Positions 26,994 through 55,536 of a stretch of 64,000 nucleotides of DNA are shown in pieces; the stretch's first letter is position 1, and the number at the start of each line of letters is the position of its first letter. Where the stretch lies: positions 5,404,001 to 5,468,000 of the forward strand of contig NC_053043.1 in the NCBI RefSeq assembly GCF_003473485.1, written 5' to 3'. This DNA comes from Medicago truncatula. Lineage: Eukaryota > Streptophyta > Magnoliopsida > Fabales > Fabaceae. A program made the translations under genes and the position numbers. The notes under the pieces are model-generated. The model was not told the DNA's origin and ran no database searches. It saw only the letters and a program-made list of their open reading frames with translations.

Positions 26994-29953
26994 ATGGCTG
27001 ATCATTCATCAAGCAATGGAAACCATGAAACGGTTTTGAATGTAAATGGTGATGCCTCCCAAAATTGTGATGAGTCATGCATCCAAGACTATGTGCCCCT
27101 TTTGCAGAAGGTATGTATCTCCTAAACCACTCTACATAGAACTTATTTTGTTGATAATAACTATGAATATGAATTTACTCTCTAAAATATCAGTCATTAA
27201 TTTTATTTTTAAAGCATTAATCTCTAAAGTTTATTATATTAATTCCTATTATTTTAATAACAAAGATTAAAGTGACGAATTTCATATACTTTAAAAATGT
27301 TTATTACTTTTATATGCTTTAAAGATTTAATTAGAGAGAAAAAATACTTTAGAGATTAAATTAATTATTGTGAATTTAAATATGGAATCAATGTTAAAAT
27401 AAATTGGTTTGATTTGTATTATGTTGAATGTAGTTGGTAGCAGAGGTGGTAGGGACGTACTTCTTGATATTTGCAGGGTGTGCTGCTGTTGTGGTGAATC
27501 TTGACAATGACAAAGTAGTAACACATCCTGGGATCTCAATTGTTTGGGGCCTCACTGTTATGGTTTTGGTTTACTCTGTTGGTCACATCTCTGGTGCTCA
27601 TTTCAACCCTGCTGTCACCATTGCTCATGCTTCCACCAAAAGGTTCCCGGTTAAGCAGGTGATCCGAGTTCTAAAGTTATATTCCGTCATGTTCTTTATA
27701 TGAGAAAAAGCTGGGTCAACAAAAATTAATGTATTTGATTCAAAATTTGGATCAAGTACATAAATTTTGACTGACCAAACTTTAAAGCATACAAATTATT
27801 TTATTTTGAAAACGATGTTATGTTTGACTATGGTGGTAAACATTTATTCAATAATTTCTTAGATGATTTGGTAAATGAAAATATAATTATTACACTTGAA
27901 TTTTCTTGAAAATTACTCGTGTTAACTCCTTAAAACAACAATATTTTCTTTAAAAAAATGCTAACAAATGCCCTAAAAAGCATTTGATAAGAAGTTTAAA
28001 GTAGAATTTTTAATTTTTAGTTTTTGTAAATTTTTGAGATAACATTGATTTTACATATGAAAAAGTAAAGTTTAGGGAACTTCTACGGTACACCCGCAAA
28101 TTAAGGTGTACCGGCACTCTCGCTTACATTTTTATAAATTAACTATCATTTTTTATGAAAGAAATATGTGTTTGTTGACATATATATTTTAGAAAATATC
28201 ATTTTATAAGAAAAAACATCATTTCATTTTTTAGAAAAATCATACTAAATTTTTCTACATTTTATTGTAAAAAATAATCAAACTTCTCTATTATGAGTAA
28301 TAGGAATTCAGAAAAATCAAATTTTATTGTGTTGACGTTTTTGGTAAATAAGATTTAGTTATTATAATTATAGGTGATAGAAAATATTTTTTTCCTACAA
28401 AAAATAACTCATTTAACTATTAATTTAAGTATTTGGTGTACCAATACACTCAAATTGGTGGATGTACCATAGAATTTGTCAAAATGGGTTTAACCATGTG
28501 CTCTATATTGTGTCATTTTCCGTATGTGTATGCAACCGTTTTTGCATTCATAATATGGTTGAATTGACCTTCAATTGAAATTTCTCTTCCTAAACTTTTC
28601 ACATTGCTTTTAAAATTTTGCATATTATCCAAAGAGTATACTTAACTGTACTAGTTTGTCTAAAAAAATTGTTGAGTTTTTCTTCAATCTATAATCTTGC
28701 AGGTACCGGCTTATATACTATCTCAAGTTCTTGGATCAACCCTTGCAAGTGGAACTCTTAGGCTTATATTCAATGGCAAAGAAAACCATTTTTCAGGAAC
28801 ACTTCCAACTGGTTCTGATCTCCAGGCATTTGTGGTCGAATTCATAATCACTTTTTATCTTATGTTCGTCATTTCTGGAGTGGCCACTGACAATAGAGCG
28901 GTAATCTCCTTTGCCCTTGTATTGAAAACTGTTAAAATATTGTATATTCAACCATTGAAAAATTGTGTATTCAACTTTTTGAAAATAAAAAATTTGTTAT
29001 TTTCAATGAATAGTTTTATTACTTTCTTATTTTCTTAACTAGTTAGCATGATTGTAACCAAAAAAAACTAGTTAGCATGATTCTTAAAATACATATAAAT
29101 TACAAATATGTCACAAGTGGACATGGGCAACAAATTCTACATTTCAATGTCCATCAATCTTCAACACAATTGTATAAATTTTGTTATTTTAGTGAAATGC
29201 TAACATGTGCCTTAAAAACTCATGTTAATGAATATAATATGGATATTTTTTTTGAAAATTGTGCATTTAACGACACATGTTAATATGAATTATTTGATTT
29301 GTCAATACTGCAGATTGGTGAGTTGGCCGGACTTGCAGTTGGATCTACTGTGCTTCTAAATGTTATGTTTGCCGGGTATGAACCTAACTATACATCAAAC
29401 CTCAAACTAAACATATTGAGAAATGCTAGAAACATTCGCTGTTTAACATTCTCTTTAACACTCACTCTCTTATCGGGGAACTCATGTGAATCACACCACT
29501 TTAGGTGATACTCAATTCTAAAGTGTGAGACCCATATGAGTTTGATCCAATGAGAGAGTAAATGTTAGAGATGACATTAGAAAAAAGGTGCTCAGATCAT
29601 TCCTCAAATATAGTTAGTGGATACTTTTACGTCGAGAGTTCTTCAATACGATTACATTCATGTCGTCACAATTCAGTTTGGTCAAATAACTTGGAACTTA
29701 ATCATGCATGTAATCCTATATGTTTGATAACAGGCCAATTACTGGAGCATCAATGAATCCTGCAAGGAGCTTAGGGCCTGCTATTGTGCACCATGAATAT
29801 AGAGGAATATGGATATATTTGGTATCAACAACTCTTGGTGCCATAGCTGGTACATGGGCATATACTTTCATCCGCTACACAAACAAGCCAGTGCGTGAAA
29901 TTAGTAAGAGTGCCTCTTTCCTTAAAGGAGTACAAAATGGTGGAGCTAAGTGA
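26994..29953 (+). CDS. NIP-A, nodulin-26-like aquaporin (NIP group I)
   Basis: Five exons: 26994-27110, 27434-27658, 28703-28900, 29314-29375 and 29734-29953; all introns are GT...AG. They give a 273-residue membrane channel (soybean nodulin 26 has 271). Six membrane spans and two half-helices are expected. The first NPA is in [12 protein letters not shown] (exon 2), the second in [13 protein letters not shown] (exon 5). The predicted ar/R filter is Trp (SIVWG), Val (LLNV), Ala (TGASMN) and Arg (NPAR), the group I pattern linked to water, glycerol, ammonia, lactic acid and arsenite passage. The C-terminal KSASFLK keeps the serine that CDPK phosphorylates in nodulin 26 (Ser262). The copy has transposon insertions in introns 2 and 4 that its twin NIP-C lacks. 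Probably located in plasma, ER or symbiosome membrane; substrate unknown. Confidence 0.95.
28075..28495. mobile_element. MITE in NIP-A intron 2
   Basis: Absent from the otherwise matching intron of NIP-C. The arms acttctacggtacaccc and, reversed, aattctatggtacatcc are inverted ends, each followed by a ggtgtacc word. Half of a related copy lies at 59100-59235, and a partial one near 34720-34770. The inner words ataattataggtgatagaaa link the copies. Borders are approximate. Confidence 0.7.
29425..29690. mobile_element. insertion in NIP-A intron 4, probable MITE
   Basis: Defined by comparison: NIP-C intron 4 is about 110 bp long, while NIP-A carries about 250 extra bases. They run between aatgctagaaacattc and aatgttagagatgacatt, which look like degenerate inverted ends. 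Superfamily not determined. Confidence 0.5.
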
Positions 29954-30254
29954 TTTATTGAAGCTTTGCATATCTTCAATTTCAATTTTTGAAGATCATT
30001 ATTTGTTTCAGTTTTGTAAGCAGAATATCTCTAGTTAATTTACATTGGCAAATAACTATGTATGTAGTATACATAACTAGAGGAAATGGTACAACTTTTA
30101 TCTACTCATCTACCATGATATTTACTTTATGTTACGGTATAAGTTTTATGCAAAATCGATTTTTTCATCGAATGATACCGCTAATTATATATTTTTTTTG
30201 ACTGATACCGCTAAATTACCCGTATATGACTGAGCGTATGTTAAATAAGCGCTT

Positions 30255-32820
30255 TGTTATCGCGATTTTCGGGTGTCAAGTCATTAATTTGGCTTGAACC
30301 TTTCAATCTTTGATATTCTCTATTTTTTCTTGGGAAGGGCAAAATTGAGAAAAAACCCTTAGATTCTAAGTTCGGGGGTCGTTTTCGCTACGGGAAGGTG
30401 TTAGGCACCCGGAGCGATTATGGTACTCCATAAGAACCGTTCTCCTAAGCTTATTTCTACGCTTTATTTTTTATTGCCTACTTATTGAAAGAAAAGAAGT
30501 TTTATTTGAGTGAAGAATGGGGGAGAGAAGATGATTGAGATCTTATTTTTATTTGGAAAATGATTTTTGAAAAGGAGGAGAGAAGCCGTAAGGCATAGAA
30601 GAAAAATGTCGAATTTGATCTTTATTTTTATTTCACAAAAGGGCATTGGAGTATTGACTCCAAAGTTTGTTTGAAAAATTTAGCCTATTTCGAAGAAGAA
30701 ATTTCACTAGGCGTCGAATTCCTAAACATACACCTAAATCGATAATCATGCAACGTGTGTGCGAGTGTCGGTGCTTGTGTCGGTGTACATTATTAGAGAT
30801 AGTCCATAGTCCTTTACATTGTCCTAGATACATGCTATGGTCTTTGTGAAGAATTTTAAAAGGAACTAATCTATCTAAGATTATTACAAACCCAATTGAT
30901 ATAGAAATGAATAGAAAAAATGATGCCAAAACTATAGGATGAATGAAATGTGAGATGAGATGGTTAGTATCATAAAGCATAAAAATAGTAGAAAGGTAAA
31001 CAAAATTGAATAGAATAGCAAGAGAGAAAAAAAAAGTAATGAAATGAAATAAAGTGGTAAAAATACACCTAGAATTTAGGTATAACACTCATACATGCAT
31101 ATGACCTATAATTCCCTCATTATAGCCATTTTTGAAAGGTTTGAATTTAAGCTACAATGTGAGGATCATAAGAGCACACACAAGCAAAGCATTATATCAT
31201 ATTCCTAGAGATATTTTCACACATTATTTCACATGCCAAAATATCACAATATGAAAAAATGCATCAAGAACATATATGGAATTTAATGAGCAAGAATTAA
31301 AAGAACAAAGTAAAGAAAATAAATGCAAAAATAAGCAAATAAATTCTAAAACTTAGGGGAAAAATCAAAATGATAGGGAAATATTTTTAGAAAATTTTTT
31401 CGAAGCATAAAATGCCAAGAAAGTGTAAAAAAGGTATTTAAAACACAATTAAAAAGCAATAAAAAAAAGGCTCAGCAGGATTTAATCTGGTCCGCTGGAT
31501 GAATCCAGAGGTCCAGATCTAACTCCCAAGATCTCATCACAGCCATTGGATCAAAGATCCAAGGGTCCAAAAAAAAGCACAAAAGATAGTGTAAAAATGC
31601 AGGAAGCACAGTGACCGTTAGATCAAAGATCTAACGGTTCAAACAGAAGATATACCATATTCCACACAAAAAATCACACACAGGATTCAAAATCAAACAC
31701 ACAGCAGCCATCAGATCTTAGAAGAATCCAGATCTGATGGTTCACAGAGCGAGGGAACACAACAAGAGCACGCACGCGCGCGCGTGGGAACGGAGGGAGT
31801 ATAAAAAGGATTTTTCACACAAAAAACACATAAACTTCTTCCTCTTCTCTCTCTAAGTTAAACTTAGAGAGAGAAGCTCTCCCTTCTCTCTAAGAACTCG
31901 CCGCCGGCGAGCATGAGGTGGTGGTGGTTCCGGCGCGGCGGCGCCACCGCGCCGGAAAATTCAAACTACTTTTTTTTTCAAAATTTTTACATCAAAAGTT
32001 CCGTTACCACCTCCTCTACACAAATCCGGCGTTAGTTTTAGCGAGAACGGTTCGGTTCGGACTAGATCTACATTTTTCTTTGAAAAAATTTTCACACTTT
32101 TTTTGGACTTAAGGACTAATCTGCAAAAAAGTTAATATGAGGACTAATCTGCAATAATAAAAAAAAGACTAAAAAAAATGCAATTAAAAAAAGTATTGGA
32201 CAAAAATGCAATTTTGGGACTCTTTTGGGGGACCGAAATGTAAATAAAAAATAAAATGAATTAAAATTGGTAATTGGTAAAAAGGTAAAGTGAAACGAAA
32301 AATAAAATCAACAAACGGACTAAAACGAACAAATTACCGACATGAGGTATTTTAAAATACCTCCCTGTCGGAATTTTGACAGGAAAAGACCAAAATGCTC
32401 CTAGGGACTAAACTGACCCAAACTGACTCAAATGCAATTTTTGAAATGATTTTAAAAAGAGATTCAACAATGATTTGTATAGACAAGTTGAAAAGACTCA
32501 GAGACAAACACAGGGACTAAAATGGGTTCCACTGCAGGAAATGACCAAAATACCCTTTTGTATGATTTTTTGAAATAAAATGCAAGAAAAGTAATGCGAC
32601 GTTTCAGAGAGTTCTTAAATGACTTGTAATGCAAGGAAAACACTTTGGATAGCTTTATGCAAGAAAATCATGATTGAACATACTTTGAGACAGAGACATT
32701 AAAATATGCAGATAAAAAAAAAAGTAAAGGTTCGGAGTAAAACCACAGTAAATTGACAATTATCAGTGTTGAAAAAGAAATTTAAACGAGTATTTTTAGG
32801 TCCAAAATCAGGGTATAACA
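30255..32820 (+). mobile_element. large solo LTR, 3' of NIP-A
   Basis: A 2,566-bp segment begins tgttatcgcg and ends gggtataaca, so it has TG/CA ends with a 5-bp inverted match (tgtta/taaca). The 5-bp word cgctt flanks it exactly on both sides (30250-30254 and 32821-32825). A promoter-like gtataaaaagg at about 31800 with a CT-rich leader points to + orientation. No internal retroelement domain or partner LTR is present, which fits a solo LTR left by recombination, probably of a Gypsy-like element with long LTRs. Intact duplications suggest moderate to young age. Confidence 0.75.
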
Positions 32821-32897
32821 CGCTTCAATCAACAAATTTGTGTTCCAATCAAATTATTACTATGATTTTTTGAAGCTCCTAACATACAATGAACCAA

Positions 32898-33104
32898 TCC
32901 ATTTGGGGTTGGCTTGAGATCTTGGAGTTTGCTCCTCCAAAGGTCTCAGGTTCGATTCCCTCTGGTGTCAATTTCGATGGGCTAAGTCCATACAGAGTTT
33001 GCTCTGACTTTAAATGGGGCCGCCGCAAGTGGGCGGTGGGATTGGTCCGTTCGGATTAGTCGGTCCTTAGATCGGATACCGAATTTTCAAAAATAAAAAT
33101 AAAA
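32898..33104 (+). mobile_element. tRNA-derived SINE with 14-bp target duplication
   Basis: An A-box-like ttggcttgagatcttgg and B-box ggttcgattcc start the element. A body with gggccgccgcaagtgggcgg follows, and an A-rich tail (aaaaataaaaat) ends it. The 14-bp word atacaatgaaccaa flanks it on both sides (32884-32897 and 33105-33118). Confidence 0.88.
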
Positions 33105-33137
33105 ATACAATGAACCAAGTTTTATATAAAATAAATT

Positions 33138-33225
33138 GTTTTTTTATTGTCGATCTAAGTTAGTCCGTACCTTGAGTCGGATACCGATTTTTTTTATTTT
33201 TAAATAAAAAAAAAGCCTCAACTTC
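33138..33225 (+). mobile_element. truncated SINE 3' end
   Basis: The words gttagtccgtaccttgagtc and ggataccgatttttt match the 3' part of the SINE just to the left (gtcggtccttagatcggataccg). Only the tail half is present. Confidence 0.6.
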
Positions 33226-33242
33226 TGTTTAAAGAGAAGAGA

Positions 33243-33438
33243 GATACTACCAAAGAGCGCTTAGATGAGATGGAACGAGTCTCTTCTAGCTTAACCAAGG
33301 TCCTGGGTTCGAATCCAGCCTTGGGCATGCAGCATGTTAAAACTCTTAGGGAGAGCCTGCCGCCCATTTGGGTCCCACAATGCTCGTGGGATTAGTCTCC
33401 GCAGTTGCACGCGGAGGATACTCGATTTACACCCAAAA
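33243..33438 (+). mobile_element. second SINE, with 12-bp target duplication
   Basis: Has the B-box-like gggttcgaatcc, a body with gcccatttgggtcccacaat and gcgtgcaactgcgg-type words (complement), and an A-rich end. The word aaagagaagaga flanks it (33231-33242 and 33439-33450). Confidence 0.8.
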
Positions 33439-33450
33439 AAAGAGAAGAGA

Positions 33451-35095
33451 CCCCAAAATCTTATTGTTTCTATAGTTGTTGTAACATATAGTAGTAGTAG
33501 AAGATCCAGATAAATGATATCTCACACCCTAAAACTATCTACTTAACTACCGATCGAACTCTGAATTACATTTGTCATTTGCTCTAAAAATCAGAAGATT
33601 AAGACAAAATAAAAACCTAAATCTCAAATAGTTTTTTAGAAATGTTGAATCAAAAGGAGGGTTTACTTGCCTATTATATAGGTGTCTCAACTTATATAAG
33701 TGACAAGTGGACCTTTCATTCTTAGTGTGTATGTGTATTTCCCCCCTTAAATTCTTTGAAAAGAAATGTCTACCATTTTTCTTAAGATCAGAGAATACAA
33801 GTATCTGTAAAATTGATTACATATTAATTAACAAAAACGCATTATCAGTTGAGTATGAAAATGAAAAAGTTGATTTTGAATGGTAAAGCATGCAGGGGAA
33901 ACACGGGGTAAACTCTTTTGGTCATGAGTTGATGAGAAAAGCTAAATTCAACAATAATAAGATCAGAGATAAGGCTGAAATGTAGACAAAGCCTACGTTA
34001 GAATATTATCAGAATCACATGAATGCTATGTATTAATACACGAGATGCATTGACTTTGTAGGTGTGCATGTGTTTGGTTTCTACTTTAGAGATAAGTTTT
34101 GTATACAACGACGGTGTAATTCTTTTACACAGATATTGGTTGATGTATATATTTTAAGGACAAATTTAAATAAGTGGTATCCAACCAAATCATGACAAAT
34201 AAATATTTGTTGAATTATTTTAAGAGCTAACTTAAATAAGTGGTATCATAAATTACTTTACTCAATTACTTTTTAGAATCGATATAAGAAATCTTAAAAT
34301 TACAATCAAAATCGAAAGATTTTACCAAAACAAAAATAATGTTCAAAATATGTTATAAATTGTATATAGTCATAAATGACCCAATTTAAAGTCCACCAAA
34401 TACTTTATACATAAATGACTAAAAAATGGACAAAATCATTTAAGACCCTTTAAAATCCTGCAATTTTGTTTCTTAAAAAAAAAAAAAATCCTGCAATTTT
34501 GTTTGAATTTCATGATTTTGTGAGATTTTGATGCATTTTTACTAAGATTTTGCCTATTTTGAGATTCTGCTATGGATTTGAGTCATTTAAGATGAATAAA
34601 GTCGCAAAATCCTATATTTTATGATTTAGGTCAAAATTTTGACAACAATGGTAAAACACGACACCCATGTCACATATTTGGAAAAAGGATAACAACATTT
34701 TGTTAAAACAAAGAATTTGAAAAGGAAACGTCTACAGTACACCTTACAAATTGAGATGCACCGGTACTACTACTCCAACTACAAGTCTCTTTTCTTCCAT
34801 GCATGTATTCGTGTTGAAACTCTTCAAATGTCTTGATTTCGTGTAGAAATGATAAGTTGTTACCCTTATTTCCTTTTTTAGTTGTTATATGTGTTTTAAA
34901 GGGTACATTTTTTTTTTTCATTTGTTGTTATATTAACCGTCTTTTTGAGGAAAAAGTTGTATGTGGTGTTTTTTGAATTTGTGTTTGATTTTTTTGTTAA
35001 TGTACTGTCTATGTTTGAACTTGTTTAGATTGATTGATAACTGTACGAGTATATCCTAAATATGATGAAGTTTTATCTACAAGTTAGGTTCCCAC
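33451..35095. other. intergenic, no gene seen
   Basis: AT-rich. Near 34720-34770 lies a partial copy of the MITE found in NIP-A intron 2 (acgtctacagtacacctt). Nothing else is recognised. Confidence 0.5.
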
Positions 35096-35200
35096 GTCAT
35101 GTATCCAAAAATAAATATACACGTAAGCCAACAAAAAGGTTGTTTAGTCAAATATCTAACATGTTCTTGCTGTACTTTATAGTTTAAGACATTTTTGGTT

Positions 35201-35326: not shown

Positions 35327-37553
35327 ATGGGTGATATTAGCAATGGAAATCTTGATGTGGTTATGAATATAAACGATGATGCTACCAAAAAATGTGACGA
35401 CACAACCATTGATGATCATGTTCCTCTTTTGCAAAAGGTGATTTTGTTTATCTTCCAAAAAAATTAATTGTTGTTTATGGTTAATTAATTAGATGTTCTC
35501 ACTAAAAAAAATGGATGTTTTGCTTTGATTGTTGAATATAGTTGGTAGCAGAAGTGGTGGGAACATTCTTCTTGATATTTGCTGGATGTGCTGCTGTGGT
35601 GGTGAACCTTAACAATGATAAAGTTGTGACACTTCCTGGAATATCAATTGTTTGGGGACTTGCTGTTATGGTATTAGTCTATTCTATAGGTCATATCTCT
35701 GGTGCTCATTTCAATCCCGCTGTCACCATTGCTCACACCACCACCGGAAGGTTTCCATTGAAGCAGGTGAATTACAAAACACAAGCACTATAATTCATAT
35801 TAAGACAAACATAGTTTTTACACCGTCTCTTAAGTTATTTGATCGGAGGTGATCAGAAGAACTGCACTCAGACGCTCAAATCTGTATGAGAGCCAAGAGT
35901 TTTGAATTTTTGGAGTTAGAAGATTGTACCTTGGAGGACATGGGATGTACTCTTTTATAGTTGACTCAGAGTAATGGTTGGAGAGCCATTTGCTGAAGAT
36001 TATAGACGATGGGGTCTGTAACAATCGAACATTGCATTTTGAATGCATGCGGAGGAGGCGTTACAGACTTACGAAATCTAAACATTTGCTCGATGTAGTA
36101 GCAAAATGGGAGGTGTGAAGAGTAAGGGCCAAAGCGAGTTTGGGCGTATGTGAAGAAGATGAAAATAGTTGGAAGACCATTATTTAGGCCTATGTTCCAA
36201 GTATATGTTGACCGAATTAGATCATTTTCTTCCACTCACCTTCTCCCATCCACAATTTATGTCCATATCTCTCTCTCTCTCTCTTGATATTTTCTCTAAA
36301 TTTTAGAGAAAGATAGACACATATTGTGAAATGAGGGAGAGAGCAAGAGTGAGTGAAATGAGAGATCCTACAATGAGAACAACCTTTTTAGGAACATTAT
36401 TAACTTTGAATTTAATTTTTTCTTGCAGTTGCCAGCTTATATAATTGCTCAGGTCGTTGGCTCAACACTTGCAAGTGGAGTTCTCAAACTTATATTCAGT
36501 GGCAAGGAAAATCAATTTGCAGGAACACTTCCAGCTGGTTCTGATCTTCAAGCTTTTGTGGTCGAATTTATTATCACTTTCTTCCTTATGTTCATCATTT
36601 CTGGAGTTGCCACTGATAATAGAGCGGTAATCATTTTTTAAAAAAAAAAAATGCTTGGTTGATAATATTAATTGATAATTATACTTCTATTATCCCTCAA
36701 AAAAAAAAAATTATACTTCTATTAAGCATTTTGGATTAAGATTTTTTTTTTTGTGGCGGCCGGAGTTTAAACTCGAATCTTACATATATTATGCATTGTC
36801 CATAGCAGCTGAGCTAAGTTTTTTTATTAAGATTTAAGATATGCTAGTAAATTATATGTGATGAAAAATCACCTTGCCAAAATAAAATTGACTTTTTCTT
36901 TCAACATCAATAAAAAGTTCATTGACTAGATGTATATATATATATATACAATTTAATTGTGGATAAGTAGGGTTGGGGTGTCTGGGGTTCGAACCCCAGC
37001 CTCTGCATATAAAATGTAATATCCCTACCAACTGAGCTAAGTTCACAGGGATGTATAAATATATTCTATGCTTACATAAATATATTCAAAAAAAATATTA
37101 TTTAACCTTGTCTGATTCATTGCTTTAGATTGGTGAATTGGCTGGACTTGCAGTTGGATCTACCGTTATACTAAATGTGCTGTTTGCGGGGTATTGATCT
37201 CAAAAACTTACCACATATTATATCATAAATTAAAATGCATGCTTTGCACCAAGAATATATAAAAATAATACGTGACATGTTATTATGAGAAAGGTTAAAA
37301 TAAAATCTAACTTGTGAGTGAAAATATATTTGACAGACCCATCACAGGAGCATCAATGAATCCAGCAAGAAGCTTAGGACCAGCTATTGTGCACCATGAA
37401 TATAGAGGAATATGGATATATATGGTGTCACCTATTCTAGGAGCTTTGGCTGGTACATGGACCTACACTTTCCTCAGAATCACAAATAAGCCAGTTCGTG
37501 AGCTCACCAAGAGTTCTTCATTCCTCAAAGCAGTAAGCAAGGGAGCTGAGTGA
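35327..37553 (+). CDS. NIP-B, nodulin-26-like aquaporin
   Basis: Five exons: 35327-35437, 35542-35766, 36429-36626, 37129-37190 and 37337-37553, giving 270 residues. Exons 2 to 4 have exactly the lengths seen in the other four genes (225, 198, 62). Both NPA boxes are intact ([18 protein letters not shown]), and the ar/R residues are W, V, A and R. The C-terminus has KSSSFLKA, a likely equivalent of the CDPK site in nodulin 26. The N-terminus (MGDISNGNLDVVMNIN) sets it apart from the A/C pair and groups it with D. Intron 2 holds LTR-like debris that NIP-D also has; intron 3 holds SINE sequences. A decayed NIP fragment follows 55 bp after the stop codon. Confidence 0.95.
35815..36235. mobile_element. 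old insertion in NIP-B intron 2, shared with NIP-D
   Basis: Contains gatcggaggtg, gagagccaagagttttgaa, aggaggcgttacagactta and tttgctcgatgtagta. Equivalent words occur in the same order in intron 2 of NIP-D (46255-46700, opposite strand). A ctataaaagag word on the minus strand gives it an LTR-like look, but no ends were fixed. Insertion must predate the B/D duplication. Confidence 0.5.
36745..36830 (-). mobile_element. degenerate SINE in NIP-B intron 3
   Basis: On the minus strand: cttagctcagctgctatgga (A-box region), then gattcgagtttaaactccgg (B-box region). Similar to, but more decayed than, the copy at 36940-37046. Confidence 0.5.
36940..37046 (-). mobile_element. tRNA-derived SINE in NIP-B intron 3
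   Basis: On the minus strand the A-box-like tagctcagttggtaggga and B-box ggggttcgaaccccag stand about 35 bp apart, very close to a tRNA promoter. It cannot be a working tRNA because the acceptor stem and anticodon loop are missing. A short (TA)n lies at its 3' end. Confidence 0.7.
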
Positions 37554-37607: not shown

Positions 37608-37740
37608 TAAGAAACTATATATAACAATGATCGTGTAGTGACACTTCTTGGAATTGCATTTACATGGGGACTTATATTGATTTACTCTGTTGGTCACATT
37701 TCTGGTCCCAATTTCCCCCCTACTGCTAAATACAGCTTCA
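37608..37740 (+). pseudogene. NIP exon 2 relic after NIP-B
   Basis: Reads NNDRVVTLLGIAFTWG, then [18 protein letters not shown]. This is the second half of NIP exon 2 with the first NPA box changed to PPT and part of helix 2 missing. The TLxGIAFxWG wording is closest to NIP-E. The flank tgtttaagaaactatatat also occurs just before NIP-E (about 53561). No exon 1, 3, 4 or 5 was seen nearby. Confidence 0.85.
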
Positions 37741-40802: not shown

Positions 40803-43254
40803 ATGGCTGATCCTTCATCAAGCAATGGAAACCATGAAATGGTTTTGAATGTAAATGGTGATGTTTCCCAAAAGTGTGATGAGTCATGCATCCAAGACTA
40901 TGTGCCTCTTTTGCAGAAGGTGTGTATCTCCTAAACCACTCTGCATATAACTTTTTTTTGTTGATAATAACTATGAATATGAATTTAATCTCTAAAATAT
41001 CGGTCTTTAATTTTATTTTTGAAGTAAATAAAATTCGTTGTCATAGTCTCTATGGTATATGAAAGTTATTATATTAATTCCTAATACTTTAATAACAAAG
41101 ATTAAAGTGACGAATTTCATATACTTTAAAAATGTTTATTACTTTTATATGCTTTAGAGATTGAATTAGAGAGAAAAATACTTTAGAGATTAAATTAACT
41201 GTCTATCCTGATATATGTGATTTGTATTATGTTGGATGTAGTTGGTAGCAGAGGTGGTAGGGACGTACTTCTTGATATTTGCAGGGTGTGCTGCTGTTGT
41301 GGTGAATCTTGACAATGACAAAGTAGTAACACATCCTGGGATCTCAATTGTTTGGGGCCTCACTGTTATGGTTTTGGTTTACTCTGTTGGTCACATCTCT
41401 GGTGCTCATTTCAACCCTGCTGTCACCATTGCTCATGCTTCCACCAAAAGGTTCCCGGTTAAGCAGGTGATCCGAGTTCTTTATATGGGAAAAAGTTGGG
41501 TCAACAAAAATTAATGTATCTCATTCAAAATTTGGACCAAGTACATAAATTTTTACTGACCCAACTTTGAAGCATTCAAATTTTTTTATCTTGAAAACGA
41601 TGTTAGGTGTGACTATAATGGTACACATTTATTCAATAATTTCTTAGATGATATGGTAAATGAAAATATTAATATTACACTTGAATTTTCTCGAAAATTT
41701 CTTGTGTTAGCTCCTTAAAGTAATAATTTTTTTTTTAAAAAGAAAATGCTAACAAATGTCCTAAAAATATTTGATAAGAAGTTTAAAGTAGAAATTTTTG
41801 AGATAAGATTGATTTTACATATAAAAAAGTAAAAGTTAAACAATGCTCTATATTGTGTCATTTTCCGTATGTGTATGCAACCGTTTTTGCATTCATGATA
41901 TGGTTGAATTGACCTTCAATTGAAATTTCTCTTCCTAAACTTTTTCCTTTGCTTTTAAATTTTTGCATATTATCTAAATAGTATACTTAATTGTACTAGC
42001 TTGTCTAAAAAAATTGTTGTGTTTTTCTTCAATATATAATCTTGCAGGTACCGGCTTATATAATATCTCAAGTTCTTGGATCAACCCTTGCAAGTGGAAC
42101 ACTTAGGCTTATATTCAATGGCAAAGAAAACCATTTTTCAGGAACACTTCCAACTGGTTCTGATCTCCAGGCATTTGTGGTCGAATTCATAATCACTTTT
42201 TATCTTATGTTCGTCATATCTGGAGTGGCCACCGATGATAGAGCGGTAATCTCCTTTGCCCTTGTATATAAACAAATACTCTACGGTATTGGGAAGTGTT
42301 AGAAAGTTGTATATTCAACTTTTTGAAAATAAATTTTTTATTTTAGATGAAAAGTTTGTACTTTCTTATTTTCTTAAGGGTCTTGTTAACGAGTGCCCTT
42401 AGGGAACTCTTTAAGGATTTCAAAAAAAGAAATTTCTCAAATGTATTTATTTAAAAAGTTAAACATTTCAATTTTCAATGCATTGAATGCACATATTTCC
42501 ATAAAATATTACTATTTTAAACCCATAAAGAGTATCCTAAGGACACTCGTTAACATTTCCTTTTCAACATGACTCTTAAAATATGTATAAATTGCAAATG
42601 TCAGAAGTGGACATGGGCAACAAATTCTACATTTCAATGTCATTCAATCTTCAACACTTAATATAGATTGTTATTTTAGTGAAATACTAATATGTGTCTT
42701 AAGAGCACATGTTAATGAATCTAATTTAAAAAATTTATCTTGAAAATTATATATTCAATTTTTTAAATATTTAAAACTTGTTTTTTTCAATGTAAAAGTT
42801 CTATATGCCTTAAGAACACATACTAACATGATCATTTATTTTGTTTGTCAATACCACAGATTGGTGAGTTGGCTGGACTTGCAGTTGGATCTACCGTGCT
42901 TCTAAATGTTATGTTTGCTGGGTATGAACCTAACTATAATTCAAACCGTAAAATTACTCCAATGCAATACAAAGACAATAGACTATTCAGTTTGGTCAAA
43001 TTACTTAGAACTTAATTATGCATGTAAATTACAGGCCAATTACTGGAGCATCAATGAATCCTGCAAGGAGCTTAGGGCCTGCTATTGTGCACCATGAATA
43101 TAGAGGAATATGGATATATTTGGTATCAACAACTCTTGGTGCCATAGCTGGTACATGGGCATATACTTTCATCCGCTACACAAACAAGCCAGTGCGTGAA
43201 ATTAGTAAGAGTGCCTCTTTCCTTAAAGGAGTACAAAATGGTGGAGCTAAGTGA
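40803..43254 (+). CDS. NIP-C, nodulin-26-like aquaporin, near-twin of NIP-A
   Basis: Exons 40803-40919, 41242-41466, 42048-42245, 42860-42921 and 43035-43254 give 273 residues. By eye it differs from NIP-A at only six residues (H4P, T13M, A21V, N24K, L120I, N178D, written A to C). Four of the six lie in the cytosolic N-terminus and none in exons 2, 4 or 5. NPA boxes, the W-V-A-R filter and KSASFLK are the same, so channel function should be alike; regulation may differ. A MITE sits in intron 3 that NIP-A lacks. The near-identity continues some 230 bp past the stop codon, then ends abruptly. Confidence 0.95.
42383..42556. mobile_element. MITE in NIP-C intron 3
   Basis: Ends ttgttaacgagtgccctt and, inverted, aggacactcgttaac make good terminal inverted repeats about 170 bp apart. 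It is absent from NIP-A intron 3, so it inserted after the A/C duplication. Confidence 0.7.
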
Positions 43255-45320: not shown

Positions 45321-47200
45321 TCACTCAGCTCCCTTGCCTCTAAGGAATGAAGAACTCTTGGTGAGCTCACGAACTGACTTATTTGTGATTCTGAGGAAAG
45401 TGTAGGTCCATGTACTAGCCAAAGCTCCTAGAATAGGTGACACCATATATATCCATATTCCTCTATATTCATGGTGCACAATAGCTGGTCCTAAGCTTCT
45501 TGCTGGATTCATTGATGCTCCTGTGATGGGTCTGTCAAATATATTTTCACTCACAAGTTAGATTTTATTTTAACCTTTCTCATAATAACATGTCACGTAT
45601 TATTTTTATATATTCTTGGTGCAAAGCATGCATTTTATGATATAATATTTGGTAAGGTTTTGAGATCTATACCCTGCAAACAACACATTTAGCATGACTG
45701 TAGATCCAACTGCAAGTCCAGCCAATTCACCAATCTGAAGCAATAAATAAAAACTATCAGACAAAGGTTAAATGATATTTAAGTAATTATGGAATGGGCC
45801 TCATGACTGATTTAAAGCTAACATTTATTGAAGTGATTTTAACATTATAAATATGTTTATACATCTTGTCAATGACCTTTTTATTGTTGTTGAAAGAAAT
45901 AGTCAATTAACTTGAGTCACAATTATATCTTAATCAAAATGATCAATAGAAATATAATTATCAATTACTATTATCAACCAAGCATTTAAAAAAGAAAAAA
46001 AATTACCGCTCTATTATCGGTGGCAACTCCAGAAATGACGAACATAAGGTAGAAAGTGATAATAAATTCGACCACAAAAGCTTGATGGTCCAAACCAGCC
46101 GGAAGTGTTCCTGCAAATTGATTTTCCTTGCCACTGAATATGAGTTTGAGAGCTTCACTTGCAAGTGTTGAGCCAGCGACCTGAGCAATTATATAAGCTG
46201 GTACCTACAGGAAAGAATTAAATAAAAATTAATAATATTTTGGACTGCACAAACGGTTGTCCTCGCCAACTAATGCTTCGAACATAGGCCCAAATAACGG
46301 TGTACCAACTATTTCCTTCTTCACATAGGTAATAGGTTGAAACTTGCTTTGGTCCATACTCTTCACACCGCCCATTTTGTTACTACATCGAGCAAACGTT
46401 CATCTCTCCTAAGTCTGTAACGCCTCCTTGCATGCAATAAAGGCTCGATGTTAGAAGGTTACAAACACCGCCATCTGTAACCGTCGGCCAACAGCTCTCC
46501 AAATATTACTCTAAGCATTTATATAAGAGGACTTCTAGTGTCGTCCTAGGTACGTTCTTCTAACCCCAAAACTTTAAACTCTTAGCTCTCATGCTGACTT
46601 GAACGCCAATGTGTCTTTTGCAGGTACCTCTGCCGTTTCAACAACCTACATTCTCGTAGGACGCCGTTCTTCTAACCACCTCCGCTCAAATAACTTAAGA
46701 GAGAAACTTATGTTTGTCTTAATATGAATTATAGTGCTTGTGTTTTGTAATTTACCTGCTTCAATGGAAACCTTCCGGTTGTAGTGTGAGCAATGGTGAC
46801 CGCGGGATTGAAATGGGCACCAGAGATATGACCTATAGAATAGACTAATACCATAACAACAAGTCCCCAAACAATTGCAATTCCAGGAAGTGTCACAACT
46901 TTATCATTGTTAAGGTTCACCACCACAGAACCACATCCAGCAAATATCAAGAAGAATGTTCGCACCACTTCTGCTACCAACTATACTCAACAATCAACGC
47001 AACACATCCATGTTTTTAGTCAGAAGATCTAATTAATTAACCATAAACAACAATTAATTTTTTGAAAGGATAAATAAAGTCACCTTTTGCAAAAAAGGAA
47101 CATGATCATCAATGGTTGTGGCATCACATTTTTTGTTTGCGCCATCGTTTACATTCATAACCACATCAAGACTTCCATTGCTAGATGAAAAATCACCCAT
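45321..47200 (-). CDS. NIP-D, nodulin-26-like aquaporin, inverted copy of the B type
   Basis: Minus-strand exons 47200-47084, 46980-46756, 46204-46007, 45734-45673 and 45531-45321 give an intact frame of 270 residues with both NPA boxes and a W-V-A-R filter. It is the closest relative of NIP-B (shared intron 2 debris, similar flanks). Several changes hit sites that are conserved in the other copies and in nodulin 26: Gly to Arg at 46 in helix 1 (EVVRTFF), Gly to Glu at 131 (LASEALK), Leu to His in GLDHQAF, and Gly to Ser in LASTWTY. About 130 bp of upstream sequence, including the TATA-like box of NIP-B, is missing. The gene may be weakly expressed or not expressed. It converges on NIP-C. Confidence 0.85.
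46255..46700. mobile_element. old insertion in NIP-D intron 2, shared with NIP-B
   Basis: Counterpart of the debris at 35815-36235, in opposite orientation. Shared words include taggcccaaata, tgctactacatcgagcaaa-like sequence and gtctgtaacgcctcc. LTR-like but without fixed ends. Confidence 0.5.
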
Positions 47201-48340: not shown

Positions 48341-48355
48341 ACTTCAAAGAAAAGA

Positions 48356-48768
48356 ATGGACACCACAAAGGAGTAAGTGTTTAAAATATATTGCATTCTA
48401 TATAATGTTATATATGGATGTAATTAAGTCTCATTTAAACTCTAATTTATCTCTAATATTTACAGTCATCAAAATGTTGTTACCTTAGATGTCCATGCTG
48501 CCAAAGATCTATTACATTCATCTGGTTACAATTATCTTGATGTGAGGTAATTAACAAAGGAATGAGATTCTCCAATTTCCTTCTTCATTTTTAATTTTCA
48601 ATGGAATCCTAACTGAAGTCATTTTCTTTCTTTTGCCCCTTTGAATAGGTCAGTTGAGGAATTCAATAAAAGCCATGTTGAGAATGCTATTAATGTCCCC
48701 TATATGTTCAAAACAGAAGAAGGTACTGTGTATATCGTCTCGTCTTTGTTATATAATTAATATTACAT

Positions 48769-48811
<43 letters not shown>

Positions 48812-49347
48812 AATTCTTAATCATATAGCTTATGTATATGTAATGTGATGTATTCCAAATGATCAACAGGAAGGGTGAAAAATCCTGATTTTGTTAACCA
48901 AGTTGCAGCAATATGTAAGAGTGAGGATCACTTGATTGTGGTAAGAACCTTTTAGCTCTCTAAATCATAAAACAACCTGTACGTATCATAAAATAGGTTG
49001 ATGTGTGACTATAATGGATTACAAATTCAGGCTTGCAATAGTGGAGGAAGATCGATTCGAGCCTGCGTTGATCTCCATAATTCAGTAAGTCTATGACAAT
49101 TATCAACCTAAAATTCTCAATCTTGAGCATTACTCGTTACTTTATTTTTAATTCCTCTAAAAGAATTAGGATTATTTCTATCATCTTGACTAAAATCTAA
49201 GGCATATGTGATATGATGTGGTAAACGCAGGGATTTCAACATATCGTCAACATGGGGGGAGGCTATTCTGCGTGGGTGGACGCTGGTTTTGCAGGTGATG
49301 ACAAGCCTGCAAACGAGCTCAAAACTGCTTGCAAGTTTCGTCCATAA
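48356..49347 (+). CDS. single-domain rhodanese (thiosulfate sulfurtransferase-like; possible HAC1-type arsenate reductase)
   Basis: Six exons: 48356-48372, 48466-48546, 48649-48722, 48870-48940, 49031-49084 and 49231-49347. All borders are GT...AG and phases agree, giving 137 residues. The fold marks are VTLDVHAAKDLLH, YLDVRSVEEFNKSHVENAIN (the usual DVR..EE...GH...A.N), then the active-site loop ACNSGGRS with its Cys, and NMGGGYSAWVDAGF near the end. No transit peptide is visible, so a cytosolic protein is likely. Plant relatives are STR16/17/18 and HAC1, a rhodanese-type arsenate reductase; the ending AGFAGD...KTACKFRP recalls the HAC1 group from memory. The first exon codes only six residues (MDTTKD), so the start is the least certain part. 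Intron 3 holds a (TA)n microsatellite (about 48772-48809). Confidence 0.88.
48772..48809. repeat. (TA)n microsatellite
   Basis: About 19 TA units in intron 3 of the rhodanese gene. Confidence 0.9.
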
Positions 49348-49349
49348 TT

Positions 49350-50930
49350 TCTGCAAGTGAACAATGTGTTTTATGTACTATCTGAGTGCCTATCTTCCTC
49401 TTTTTTAATTTTATGAATATTGCCTAATTTAATTTTAAGTGAGGTCTAAGCTATCTTTGAAAAATTGTGAATAATTTGCTCAATAATCAACCAAATTTGG
49501 TCATATAAGTACATTTGTATCTTGTATCGCTAATTTTTACTTCACTTGCAAATTTATTTACGTCGCTAATTTTTATGATTGTTGGATAAATTCTTTGAAG
49601 AGAGAAACGTGTTTCAAAGTATTCAATAATTGGAACCACAACAATCGTTGTCGTCCTCAAAAACGGATCCTTTGGTACCATTAATGTATATGATACCATT
49701 CATAATCGTTGGATTAATTTAAAGTGAAAACAGATCTATATCTAACCAAATTAGACCAAGAGGGACACAATCAACTAAGAGTTATGAATGAAAATTGCAG
49801 CGATGCAACTTGCTTTGTAACGGCGACGACAATTGTCTTTGGTGACGGGACGACGAAAGAGTTGCAGCGGCGATGGCAGCAAGCATGCTGTTTATATATA
49901 CATTCACGAGCATTAAAGAATTTATAAATAACTGGTTTTACAATTTTTAATAGTGTTATTTAATAAACATTCACTCTGTCTCTCTCACTTATAAGAAACT
50001 ACACTAGAAACATCATTAGTGTTAGCCAATTTCCTTTTTCACCATACTCTCTTCTCACGTGTCTTACCGAATTCTCAAAACACTCATGTTTAGATTATAT
50101 AATCCAAACGTCTTTTTAAAGATTTTTGAATAATATGATTCGAAAACCCTAAAATTTCAAGGAAAATTTCCGGATTATTTATAACATTCCAAAACGTATT
50201 ACAATGTATCAATTGACACATTTTTAATTATATAATCCGAACAGTGTCAACATAGAAACGAAACCTATATTGTTTAGATGACGCCTTTTTTTGGTAAATT
50301 GGGAAATCGAGATTGACTTAAACATACATCAAAACAAATCATCAAAAAAATATTTAATGCAAGCATAGGAAAAACATAATGGAAGCATAGATTAAAAAGT
50401 AGTTGACCTTTGTTGTTTTGCCTCGCATACATAGTAATCAAACAACTATACCAACAATTATTAGTCAGGTGCATTATAAAGATTAAAACTAAGAAAGCAA
50501 AAATATTTACAAGTTGTGTCTAGTTCCGCTAGGCAAGCAAATTTTGCAGAACAAGAAAAGTATTTATAACAGGTTCATAAAAAACTATAAACAAGCGAAA
50601 CCAATCTAATTTGACGTAGTCCTCGACGACGGCACCATTTGATAAAGAGAATTTAGTTTACCCTCGCACATCAGTGAGTATTATGCCAATTTCATCAAAA
50701 ATATATTGTCGAACCACTTAGACCACACTTAGCTCAATTTTTCCTGTTTTGACATAATTTCTAAACAGGTTTTGTAAAAGTGTTTTGTTGATGTGATCAA
50801 ATGTAAACTAGCCAAGATAGAGAAAGTTGTGCTGGGATCAATAGTTTTTTTTTAAGAAATATTTCAACAGTTATTCCTGGTATTTTTCCTCTTAATCAAT
50901 CGTTTACTTTTTATTCTTCAGATATAACTC
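49350..50930. other. intergenic, no gene seen
   Basis: Includes the 3' end of the rhodanese transcript. Around 50090-50260 the words tagattatataatccaaac and taattatataatccgaac recur about 130 bp apart, possibly the ends of a small element. Short frames match nothing. Confidence 0.45.
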
Positions 50931-51640
50931 CGCCTATCCCTCAGCATATGTCCATCTTTGGTTAACGATGCGAGATCCATTGAACCAACTGACTTCCAAC
51001 ACGTCAGTGGCAAAATAGTTCATTGTTTCAATGAAGTACACGAGGATAGTTATACAAGAATATATACCTACCCGCCAACACATAATGAGATACAGATGAA
51101 CCGGGAACAAGTTGGTGGGCGTCGCACTCTTTACCGACAAGACCACCACCTCTGTCAATGTGATATACCTCAATTTCTTATGTGGCCTTGAGCTGGCCAA
51201 CGATTATGCATGGGGAGTAGCTTCCCTTGCTCACTTGTATAAGGAGCTTAACAATGGATGTCGTTATCAGACGAAGAACTTAGCTGGATACGCGACCTTG
51301 TTTCATGTTAATAATGAAATTATTATTTAGTTAATAGTTAAACATATTTTTGTATGTGTTGTCTAATGATACATATATGTCGATGTTTATGCATGTTTGG
51401 ATATTTCAGCACTTTCAGGAAGTTAGGGGTAGGGAATTTTGGGGTGGATACAAAGACGATCACCATCCACGTGCCACAATGTTTGCTCCTACGAAGGAAA
51501 TGATCGTAACAGATACAACATGATCAAACCTGAATCGGATCATAGTTAGAGGCGTTTTCTTCTACTCGTACCATGTGATCTGCAACACACATCCATTCAA
51601 GCGAATCAGTCTTCTACTCGTACCATGAACCTTGCTTGTT
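50930..51640 (+). pseudogene. plant-mobile-domain relic
   Basis: The frame at 51112-51330 reads VNVIYLNFLCGLELANDYAW, then GVASLAHLYKELNNGCRYQT and LAGYATLF. This matches the central PMD segment (VHEYAWGAAALAYLYREL...GGYMTLLQAW). Further right, after an intron-like AT-rich stretch, another frame has GREFWGGYKDDHHPRA and HPFKRISLL. Reading is broken and no full protein is possible. Confidence 0.65.
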
Positions 51641-52159
51641 TCATTTTCTTCCGTAGCGCGTGTTGCGCTAGTTTTTGTAATGTTTTTGTAATGTCATTTT
51701 AGTTGGTCCTTGTTGTCATTAAAGAAAGATTTGCTAAAGATAGTTCAATTATAAAAAGAAGACATCTGATACATAATTTGAACTACTTGTCAGTTAGTGA
51801 TTCTTATATAATATATGATTTATTTTTAGGTGGAAGACTTCGAATCACCAAACGGAGTGCAACGTTCTTTTGAGTCTATTCATTTACATTAGGTTGATCA
51901 AGAAAAATTCTCAAGAAGGACCATCTATAATTTTTATGTTTGGAACTCAAGAAACTCTTTGTATATATTTTTTTTGTTAAACTTTGTATCATTTGTTTGT
52001 TTTTATTGAATCATTTTATATGAATGTAAAATTCATATTTTAGTTTGTGTGTTAAATCATATTTTAATAAAGAATAAAATTAGTTTTGTCACAAGTCACA
52101 ACAACATAATTCCACAAAAACATGCTAAAAATTCATTAAAAAACATATTCATTATTTTT

Positions 52160-52428
52160 CTTAAAGAAATTCCACTGATTGTGACGGTTCCAAACCGTTG
52201 CAACATCCCTTTCAAACAAATAAAATTGTGTAATTTGCTACAGTTCAAACAATCGCAGTACCCTTTGAGGAAGTTGTAACTACGGTTCTCAGAACCGTCA
52301 CAAAAAGGCCTAGCAATACCCATTTCGTCGACCGTTGGGGAACCATCGCAAAAGACAATTTGCGACGGTTTGAACAGTCGCGTATTCACTTTTTAACCGT
52401 CACAAAGGGCATTTTTTGTTGTAGTAAA
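52160..52428. mobile_element. CACTA-type transposon end, inserted in a PMD relic
   Basis: Repeated short sub-terminal words of the type gtgacggtt / aaccgtcac occur in both orientations. The segment ends with ccgtcacaaagggcatttt and ttgttgtagta, the complement of the familiar cactacaacaaaaaatgccc CACTA start (last base changed). Only one end is evident. Confidence 0.7.
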
Positions 52429-52429
52429 A

Positions 52430-53065
52430 GAGGAACATCAAAGTCCATGAGGCGGTCCTCGACTGGGAGATGCATCAGACATGACACATTATCCAGTGTT
52501 ATTGTAATCTCCCCAATCGAAAGATGGAAACTGGAAATCTACTCGTGCCAGCTCTTAACAAATTCAGACAACGAGCTATGGTTAATAATGTTATAGCTAA
52601 CATGCTTGAGCTAGTAAAAACCACTGACTTGTACGACATCTCTGAACCATGTCTGACACGTCCACACCTTATTTGAATCACGTATAGCCTTCAACTTCTT
52701 CTCGTTGTTCACACATTTTAAATTGTTACGCCATTGATACAAACAAAAAAATATCGGTTTACATAAATAAGTAAAACACAGTACAAAAAATATAAGTTGA
52801 AGAATCTTACTACTCCAGCAAACATGCACCTGGGCCACCAGGATTGGTATTCAGCAGTTGTGACTCCTTCTCCACATATTGTGGGTGCTCATCATCGTCA
52901 TTCGCCTCTTCCTCTGAATTATCTGAATCATCATCCTCCTCCTCAACATGGTGTTGTTGGGGTTGGAGCTCATACTCGTGCACCTGAGATGGTTCAGATC
53001 TATCAGTACTACGGTCTCTGCCCCTACCCCTGCCCACTCTCCCTTCTGCTACAACCTTCTGCATC
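52430..53065 (-). pseudogene. plant-mobile-domain relic, N-terminal part
   Basis: From 53064 on the minus strand comes a frame with GRVGRGRGRDRS and an acidic HVEEEDDDSDNSEEEANDDD stretch. It is followed, after a break, by SFHLSIGEITITLDNVSCLM and HLPVEDRLMDFDVP. The latter is the PMD N-terminal motif (FHLP.GEMTITLDDVSCLLHLP..G). A CACTA end abuts it at 52428, so the element was cut there. Confidence 0.65.
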
Positions 53066-53365
53066 CGCTATCACTTAATGGATGCAGTCATGACTGGTTA
53101 TGTAGTTTCTAATGCGGTATATGATGTCTATACCTAAAACATGCAAAATCACATATACATAGTTTCTGATGCGGTATATGATGTCCATGCCTAAAACATG
53201 CAAAATCACATACACATGCGACTTACAATAATCCACAAAATAATCAAATTACATCATATAGTGAAGCAGTTCGGTTTATATAATGGAAACCAAAAACAAT
53301 CATTAAGTGCAACTAAGAATGTTAGTTATTCAATAAAATTGAGGTGTTACATGTTTTTTTGAGAA

Positions 53366-53430
53366 ATGTTAAACTTAAAACTTGTGAGTGAAAATATATT
53401 TGAGAGGCCAATCACAGAAGTATCATATTT
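53366..53430 (+). pseudogene. NIP intron 4/exon 5 border relic before NIP-E
   Basis: The words aacttgtgagtgaaaatata, ttgag and ggccaatcacagaagtatca match the end of intron 4 and start of exon 5 of NIP-B (37311-37352), though the splice acceptor is altered. Beyond about 53430 the similarity is lost. This is the tail of a vanished B-type gene. Confidence 0.7.
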
Positions 53431-53714
53431 GAATTTTAGACATTATGGAACCATGACTTCGAGTTGTTGTCATAATATTGTCAAATTCATGATATAAGGG
53501 GGGTTAATTAACTATATATTTTATTCCAACAAAGGAATTGTGTTGAAATATCAAATTAATGTTTAAGAAACTATATATCTACTCAAACTATAACTACTTC
53601 TCAAATAGTTTTTCTCATCAATTGTTTGTCAATAGCAGAGCCACATTCATTTCTTGCGCCATTTTTCAGCTTCATATAAAAAATATATGTAGTATATATT
53701 TATTTTTGTCAACC

Positions 53715-55536
53715 ATGACTGATAATTCAGAAAGCAACGAAATTCATCATGAGGTAGTTTTAGATGTAAATAGTCATGCCTCACAAAATTGTGAAGAATC
53801 AGGCATCAAAGACTCTGTGCCCCTTCTCAAGAAGGTAACTTTTATTTCATTCTCTAGAAGGCATTCATTAAGTTTTTAGTCTTCTTTTGGATCATTTTAA
53901 TTTCATTTATATAGAGCTTGAAAATTTGATTTGAAATGACAAAAAAATTTACTTTTGTTGGATATTGAAAATAGCTGGTAGCAGAAGTGGTGGGAACATA
54001 CATGATGATATTTGCGGGTTGTGCTGCTGTTATTGTGAATCTTAACAATGATCATGTAGTAACACTTCCTGGAATTGCATTTGCTTGGGGATTCACTGTT
54101 ATGGTTTTGATTTACTCTGTTGGTCACATTTCTGGTGCTCATTTCAACCCTGCTGTTACCATTGCTTTTGCTTCTACGAGAAGATTTCCCTTCAAGCAAG
54201 TGAGTTTAAATACATCTTATGCATTTGATTATATATATATCTAAAATAAAATTGGAAAAAATCTTAATAATCAAAACATGCATGTTGATAATAAGTTGGT
54301 AATACTATAACTACTAACTCTAAAAGACTTCATTGCCTCAATTTGTCTTATATTATTGAATTTTCATTCATTTTAACTTTGTTGAAGGTACCAACTTATA
54401 TGATAGCTCAGGTCCTTGGATCCACATTAGCAAGTGGAAGCCTCAGACTAATATTTAATGGTGAAGATGATCATTTTATTGGAACACTTCCAGCTGGTTC
54501 TAATTTGCAAGCTTTTGTAATCGAGTTCATATGCACTTTCTTCCTTATGTTTGTTATTACTGCAGTAGCCACCGATAACAGAGCGGTAATGTTTCCTACT
54601 CTTATTTTTTACATTTTGATTAAATTTGTTTAACAAATTGGGTTGAACATTTTGATTAAATATTTTTTTATTGGTTACTTAAATTGACCAACTTATAATT
54701 AAACTTATATAAAGATATCTTTTGGAATAAGAGTTCTTCAAAATAGTAGTGGTATGCATTTCATATTGTCGTCAAATACTTAATGGATATTCTGAATACT
54801 TATTCGTATTTAAATATACTTTTTTCCTTTTACTTTTTGAATCTCTATATCAAATTTTGTCATGTTGTACTCTGGAGAATGTCATCTATATAGTCTGTTA
54901 TTTTATTTTTTTTTGAAATATATATAGTCTGTTATTTGTTCCAACGACTTAATAATATTAGAAGTTTACATTGTAACACCTACGCAATCACATGCCATGC
55001 GCATCAAAACATATAATAATCCAAATAATTTTTTATTTTTTCATGGATTTTGTTTATATATTTTTGTGAAATTATTTTGTTTTAAATTGCTGATTATTAT
55101 TATTTTATTTTTTTTGCAGATTGGTGAATTAGCCGGACTTGCGATTGGGTCTACAATAATAATAGATATATTGTTTGCGGGGTATTAACTAATCTTAAAA
55201 CCTAATTGAATATATTTTTTAGTGAAGTTTGTACACATAATATATAACTCTTTTGGAAGCAAAAGCAGATTTATAACTTGTGTGTGTGTGTGTGAAATTA
55301 TATTTTACAGACCAATGACGGGAGCATCGATGAATCCAGCAAGGAGTTTAGGACCTGCTTTTTTATACGACAATTATACAGGATTATGGATATATTTGAT
55401 TGCACCAATTCTAGGAGCTTTGGTAGGTACATGGACTTACAATTTCATCAGGCACACAAACAAGCCAACGTGTGATGAGCTCCCTAAGATTGAGCTCACC
55501 AAGATTGTCCCTTTCCTTAGGAGGAGCAGGTCGTAA
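53715..55536 (+). CDS. NIP-E, divergent nodulin-26-like aquaporin
   Basis: Exons 53715-53834, 53975-54199, 54388-54585, 55120-55181 and 55311-55536 give 276 residues. NPA boxes are intact ([18 protein letters not shown]). It is the most divergent copy: the third-helix filter position is Ile (IIDILFAG) in place of Val, giving W-I-A-R, which is still within group I. The loop region EDDHFIGTLPAGSNLQ also differs. The C-terminus (LPKIELTKIVPFLRRSRS) lacks the SASF/SSSF serine that the other four share with the CDPK site of nodulin 26, so control by phosphorylation probably differs. Introns are short (140, 188, 534 and 129 bp). A TATA-like ctatatat lies about 145 bp before the ATG. Confidence 0.95.

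Follow-up and report, generated by a model that had tools for sequence, protein, structure and literature searches.

We describe a tandem array of five intact genes for nodulin-26-like (NIP) aquaporins, A to E, in a 64,000-nucleotide stretch of the Medicago truncatula genome (C2:5404001-5468000; hereafter the window, in which all unprefixed positions are counted). The array occupies positions 26994-55536 and is mostly ordinary, consisting of group I NIP genes with the normal gene plan of their family. Very probably it grew and shrank by birth and death, with an old set of A, B and E, a younger doubling into the pairs A/C and B/D, and later gene conversion. The genes were rebuilt from splice sites and open frames, with starts and ends exact to the base (W-V-A-R and W-I-A-R are the pore filters discussed below; aa, amino acids):

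26994-29953, + strand: NIP gene A; exons 26994-27110, 27434-27658, 28703-28900, 29314-29375, 29734-29953; 273 aa; W-V-A-R
35327-37553, + strand: NIP gene B; exons 35327-35437, 35542-35766, 36429-36626, 37129-37190, 37337-37553; 270 aa; W-V-A-R
40803-43254, + strand: NIP gene C, sister of A; exons 40803-40919, 41242-41466, 42048-42245, 42860-42921, 43035-43254; 273 aa; W-V-A-R
45321-47200, - strand: NIP gene D, inverted sister of B; exons 47200-47084, 46980-46756, 46204-46007, 45734-45673, 45531-45321; 270 aa; W-V-A-R; G46R among its private changes
53715-55536, + strand: NIP gene E, most divergent copy; exons 53715-53834, 53975-54199, 54388-54585, 55120-55181, 55311-55536; 276 aa; W-I-A-R; without C-terminal KSxSF
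Exon lengths in bp (exons 1/2/3/4/5): A 117/225/198/62/220; B 111/225/198/62/217; C 117/225/198/62/220; D 117/225/198/62/211; E 120/225/198/62/226

All 20 introns have GT-AG borders (sizes 103-1044 bp; intron 4 is 146 bp in B and 141 bp in D), and all five reading frames run uninterrupted to products of 270-276 aa. These proteins are 65.4-97.8% identical to one another (A versus C, 97.8%), which rules out a chance origin; misread exons were rejected too. Exon 5 of B and D has an alternative in-frame acceptor 18 nt upstream, and protein alignment favours the downstream acceptor in both (exon 5 of 217 bp in B and 211 bp in D). A preliminary description of the window had chosen that acceptor too, and had reported five complete NIP genes in 28.5 kb, exons 2, 3 and 4 of 225, 198 and 62 bp in every copy, and variation only in exons 1 (111-120 bp) and 5 (211-226 bp). 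The rebuilt models return every one of these figures; the inversion of D had gone unmentioned, and a decayed exon-2 fragment at 37623-37739 had been overlooked.

The assignment to NIP group I, made in the same description, is borne out by the pore. The Pfam MIP domain covers the whole channel in A, D and E, the three of the five proteins that were scanned whole (E-values 1.6e-62 to 2.4e-67), and exons of both B and C match PF00230 above the cut-off. Both NPA motifs (NPA/NPA) are intact in all five proteins. At the alignment columns that we take to be the aromatic/arginine (ar/R) filter positions, A to D read W-V-A-R and E reads W-I-A-R. In agreement with this choice of columns, L014, another NIP locus of the genome, reads G-S-G-R there, the known filter of NIP III. 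The group I filter has been defined as W, V or I, A, R (PMC2726226), and because of the NPA motifs and this filter we regard all five copies as group I NIPs. Filters of W-V-A-R occur likewise in L010 and L011, two loci on contig C8 with which the array groups (support 91/95) in a tree whose rows all come from this genome. The best solved-structure match of protein A is ‘Aquaporin NIP2-1’ (7nl4, 7cjs), presumably rice Lsi1.

A serine motif at the C terminus reads KSASF in A and C and KSSSF in B and D, and is absent from E. In soybean NOD26, the C-terminal serine that calcium-dependent protein kinase (CDPK) acts on is Ser262, which presumably stands in such a context, KSASF. Phosphorylation of Ser262 increases the water permeability of NOD26 (PMC2726226). 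Each intact copy is predicted to be an aquaglyceroporin like nodulin 26, with six helices and a tetrameric assembly, the narrow and hydrophobic W-V/I-A-R filter of which should pass water, glycerol and small neutral solutes; ammonia might pass as well, by likeness to reports on soybean NOD26. All five copies are presumably expressed and active in transport.

The history of the array was read from a tree whose rows are 16 NIP proteins, not the full set of the genome; three rows were flagged for long branches, and L017 and both strands of L019, with no full exon set, were dropped. A joins C (100/98) and B joins D (100/100), A to D are united at 92/87, and the five-gene clade, with E outermost, has 93/95. 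The C8 pair L010/L011 are the nearest relatives, outside that clade, and a group of loci on C4 (L018-L020) belongs to a different NIP branch. Overall synonymous divergence (dS) is 0.047 for A-C and 0.109 for B-D, and 0.69-0.81 for the remaining eight pairs. With exons 2 and 5 set aside, A and C differ by 8 changes over 89 synonymous sites, near the B-D level, and because of this closeness the two pairs are perhaps of the same age, so that the A/C and B/D duplications may fall at one common time. If synonymous sites change at about 1e-8 per site and year, that age would be roughly 4-5 million years. An A-B unit may have been doubled into C-D as a single block.

Two observations on other loci stand beside the tree. 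L002 (C3:1753514-1754191, - strand) is an intronless NIP gene with an open frame of 304 codons that groups with the five-exon L012 on C5 (100/99), and is a probable retrocopy that is still open. In the second NIP group, L018, L019 and L020 at about 739-797 kb of C4, a near-identical stretch of exons 2-3 occurs four times, in mixed orientation; the exon finder described below did not find exons 4 and 5 for the two inner copies, those in L019.

The array also holds the remains of a further copy:

37623-37739, + strand: decayed E-type NIP exon-2 fragment, no gene, about 70 bp past the stop of B (tblastn, DNA match and site pattern)

The relic is 61.9% identical to E over 42 residues (tblastn) and 79% identical over 116 bp of exon 2 of gene E (DNA). 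In a 156-column alignment that overruns the homology, it is 67.3% identical to E, 60.3% to L010/L011 and 56-57% to A to D, and at 40 informative columns it shares its state with E alone at 10, with B/D alone at 5 and with A/C alone at 0. As a matter of sequence likeness, this suggests that an E-type gene formerly adjoined B.

Within both young pairs, divergence is unevenly spread, and three stretches are candidates for gene conversion:

27428-27702, + strand: tract of A identical to C over 252 aligned bases; exon 2 with short intron stretches on both sides and an internal gap
29730-30169, + strand: tract of A with a single mismatch to C, between identical runs of 253 and 186 bp; exon 5 and 216 bp of 3' flank
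37215-37451, + strand: tract of B that matches D at all of 232 aligned bases; the greater part of intron 4 and the first part of exon 5

Between A and C, mismatches number 0 of 225 in exon 2, 0 of 220 in exon 5 and 3 of 230 in the 3' flank, with introns 8-26% different. Synonymous changes number 0 in about 107 sites of exons 2 and 5 against 8 in 89 in exons 1, 3 and 4 (Fisher p 0.0015). The longest A-C identity runs (253, 252 and 186 bp) compare with a permuted maximum of 99 in 2000 shuffles, and the longest B-D run (232 bp) with one of 55. B and D are 97.9% identical in intron 4 (3 mismatches in 141), against 75% in intron 2 and 59% in intron 3. Strong constraint that extends to synonymous sites could in principle account for the identity of A and C in exons 2 and 5, which hold both NPA motifs and lie in genes under evident purifying selection. 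Yet the synonymous changes are missing from just these exons, A and C stay alike, but for one mismatch, over 216 bp of 3' flank, the B-D tract spans most of intron 4, and the synonymous sites of exons 2 and 5 are unconserved in two other pairs of the array (25 of 56 and 19 of 51 changed between A and B; 19 of 55 and 12 of 48 between A and E), and we find this explanation very unlikely. Exchange at the DNA level between neighbours, that is, gene conversion, is to judge by these patterns the probable source of the A-C and B-D tracts. Conversion mediated by cDNA is disfavoured, as the tracts reach into introns and flank.

The order of events that we infer begins with older genes of the A, B and E types. 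A younger duplication would then have produced A/C and B/D, with D in inverted orientation; the E-type copy adjoining B would have decayed to the exon-2 relic; and later gene conversion would have re-homogenized A with C, and B with D, in places. Several points qualify or count against this reconstruction. The ABCD and five-gene nodes miss the 95/80 level starred by the tree program, which only the two pairs reach. No intergenic sequence of at least 120 bp is shared between the A-B and C-D units, and a single block event is unproven. The relic, at 79%, is more diverged than a three-gene block duplication of A-C age predicts, and may be older. As regards conversion, the contrast of exons 2 and 5 was picked after their identity had been seen, and the shuffles pool exons and introns as one class although purifying selection lengthens runs in exons; B-D synonymous divergence is low in exon 5 only (1 in 49.5 sites against 15 in about 142 elsewhere). 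Given the pooled shuffles and the post hoc contrast, the A-C 3' flank (3/230) and B-D intron 4 (3/141) weigh most.

A bolder model would have ongoing conversion keep the pore exons 2 and 5 alike while N termini, introns and upstream regions drift, giving one pore under several controls, and the inverted B/D pair could add a hairpin RNA that tunes the array; we propose it as speculation that is quite improbable. In practical terms, no primer or short read confined to exon 2 or exon 5 can separate A from C, since the two genes do not differ in either exon.

The 97.8% identity of proteins A and C might raise the suspicion that assembly error has inflated the copy number. We judge such an artefact extremely unlikely: introns differ by 8-26% in A-C and by 2-41% in B-D, and the 75 matches listed for protein A include no near-identical copy elsewhere, the closest outside the array being the C8 exons at 67-80% identity.

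Selection has been purifying overall, with ratios of nonsynonymous to synonymous divergence (dN/dS) of 0.16-0.40 over the ten pairs; B-D has the highest, 0.40 versus 0.16-0.34 in the other nine. Copy D carries 14 private residues in the alignment, among them Arg in place of Gly46, where 15 of 15 other aligned NIPs have Gly, and Ser in place of Gly240, where 14 of 15 do. Its branch in the tree is 0.083 long versus 0.019 for B, with 14 nonsynonymous and 9 synonymous changes assigned to D and 2 and 4 to B; 16 more B-D differences are unassignable. No single test of D is significant, whether for relaxed constraint (Fisher p 0.36; p 0.12 against the A-B background; relative-rate p 0.06-0.42 with five outgroups) or against neutrality (binomial p 0.09), and the idea that D is a neutral pseudogene is not established. 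With radical private changes and these non-significant tests, D may be losing function or be impaired. Copy E is perhaps differently regulated, because it lacks the C-terminal serine motif of A to D. The array offers an example of young tandem channel genes in which one copy is doubtful, another survives as a relic, and some tracts look converted.

The preliminary description had drawn attention to the invariance of the inner exons; the lengths are true, and they are not special. A simple exon finder applied to further NIP loci of the genome (429.9 Mb in 42 contigs) recovered inner exons of 225/198/62 bp in both C8 genes, L010 and L011, 225/195/62 in L014, L015, L016, L018 and L020, 231/198/62 in L009, 222/198/62 in L012 and 219/207/62 in L013. 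The finder rated candidates by comparison with the exons of three array genes, A, B and E, and limited exon 4 to 59, 62 or 65 bp, which biases it towards the lengths of the window, while splice sites and open frames were still demanded. It gave no full exon set for L017 or for two copies in L019, and the models of L009, L013, L014, L015, L016, L018 and L020 lack exon 1. Because unlinked NIP genes share these exons or come very close to them, we rejected the invariant inner exons as a feature special to the array; on these gene models, exon sizes track the NIP family rather than the array. In Arabidopsis and rice, too, NIP duplicates are described as alike in gene structure and variable in their introns, one case excepted (PMC2726226).

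L017 itself, on C1, is a NIP5-like gene bearing NPS and NPV motifs, in agreement with the description of MtNIP5;1 (Medtr1g097840) as an NPS/NPV protein (PMC7724820).

A role in nodules or mycorrhiza, also raised at the outset, finds no support in the sequence. As an adaptive expansion for symbiosis, the array would supply channels for the symbiosome or periarbuscular membrane, each copy under its own symbiotic control. MtNIP1 of M. truncatula has been linked to arbuscules (PMC3667144, PMC3435296), is cited as ammonium-transporting (in PMC3533510) and is more highly expressed in some mycorrhizal root compartments (PMC8229133); NOD26 is a channel of the soybean symbiosome (PMC4266029); and NIP1;2 and NIP1;5 of M. 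lupulina are cited as raised in mycorrhizal roots at the second-leaf stage (in PMC13233624). However, the published symbiotic NIP1 genes were matched to no array copy, and the C8 pair is an equal candidate for MtNIP1; the same two M. lupulina genes are lowered in leaves of mycorrhizal plants at flowering (PMC13233624), and LjNIP1 is inefficient at ammonium transport (PMC3533510).

Upstream motifs of the five genes are unconvincing as well. We scanned 1.5 kb upstream of nine genes (the five of the array and four other NIPs) against mononucleotide shuffles, which makes for a weak scan. The CTTC-type core TCTTGTTC was found in none of the five array regions and in one of the four others, the C8 gene L011, at -19. 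Among the array genes, P1BS occurs only in B (two sites) and the AW-box only in D (one site), and counts of NODCON motifs are near shuffled expectation except for NODCON2 in C (7 versus 2.6), the only one clearly above the shuffles. On balance, we consider expansion for symbiosis unlikely.

With group I NIPs such as soybean NOD26, MtNIP1/MtNIP1-2, LjNIP1 and AtNIP1;1/1;2, the array copies share the MIP domain, two NPA motifs, the W-V/I-A-R filter, five exons and, in four of the five, the KSxSF serine motif, a likeness drawn from published features. They differ in that the H5 filter site of E is Ile, that E lacks the KSxSF serine, and that D has Arg at the Gly of all 15 other aligned NIPs. Chickpea, a related legume, likewise has tandem NIP1 genes, although three in each group rather than five: CaNIP1-6/7/8 on chromosome 1 and CaNIP1-3/4/5 on chromosome 6; four introns occur in 10 of its 16 NIPs (PMC5126082). 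Within M. truncatula, the C8 pair resembles the array in its local duplication and 225/198/62 plan but stands outside the five-gene clade, and the C4 group (L018-L020, about 0.74-0.80 Mb) also consists of local duplicates (225/195/62 in L018 and L020) but belongs to another NIP branch.

A review puts the aquaporins of M. truncatula at 46, including 18 NIPs, and places seven aquaporin genes among tandem duplicates (PMC12036568, citing Min et al. 2019); a survey counts 17 NIPs there and 14 in alfalfa, which has one tandem NIP pair (PMC8950044); PMC5748714 deals with a MIP gene of chromosome 8. A literature look-up with six Medtr2g locus tags returned no paper. The five genes are very likely already within these M. 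truncatula inventories; what is added here is the A/C-B/D doubling, the conversion-like tracts, the relic and the diverged copies D and E. The tracts and the relic were not found in print by a limited literature search, and they may still have been published.

Other features of the window lie on either side of the array:

2925-3974, + strand: intronless PDX1-type reading frame of the SOR/SNZ family (E-value 5.2e-112)
56537-58942, - strand: seipin gene, two exons or more (Pfam Seipin)
17539-18894: GRF zinc-finger reading frame between inverted ends that are 98% alike over about 325 bp
14704-16214: tandem-repeat array with units of 28-60 bp and longer periods
11918-13604: palindrome of 1.7 kb that matches its reverse complement at 73%

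The PDX1-type frame, which we take to serve vitamin B6 synthesis, and the seipin gene are useful flank markers for synteny. End pieces (about 240 bp) of the element at 17539-18894 occur at many genome sites, often as adjacent inverted pairs (at least 152 matches, with 40 of 385 candidates scored), and the element probably represents a mobile-element family. The tandem-repeat array flips its orientation at about 15530, forming a large palindrome, and the 1.7-kb palindrome has relatives at three other places (on C36, C4 and C7), each of which matches both strands.

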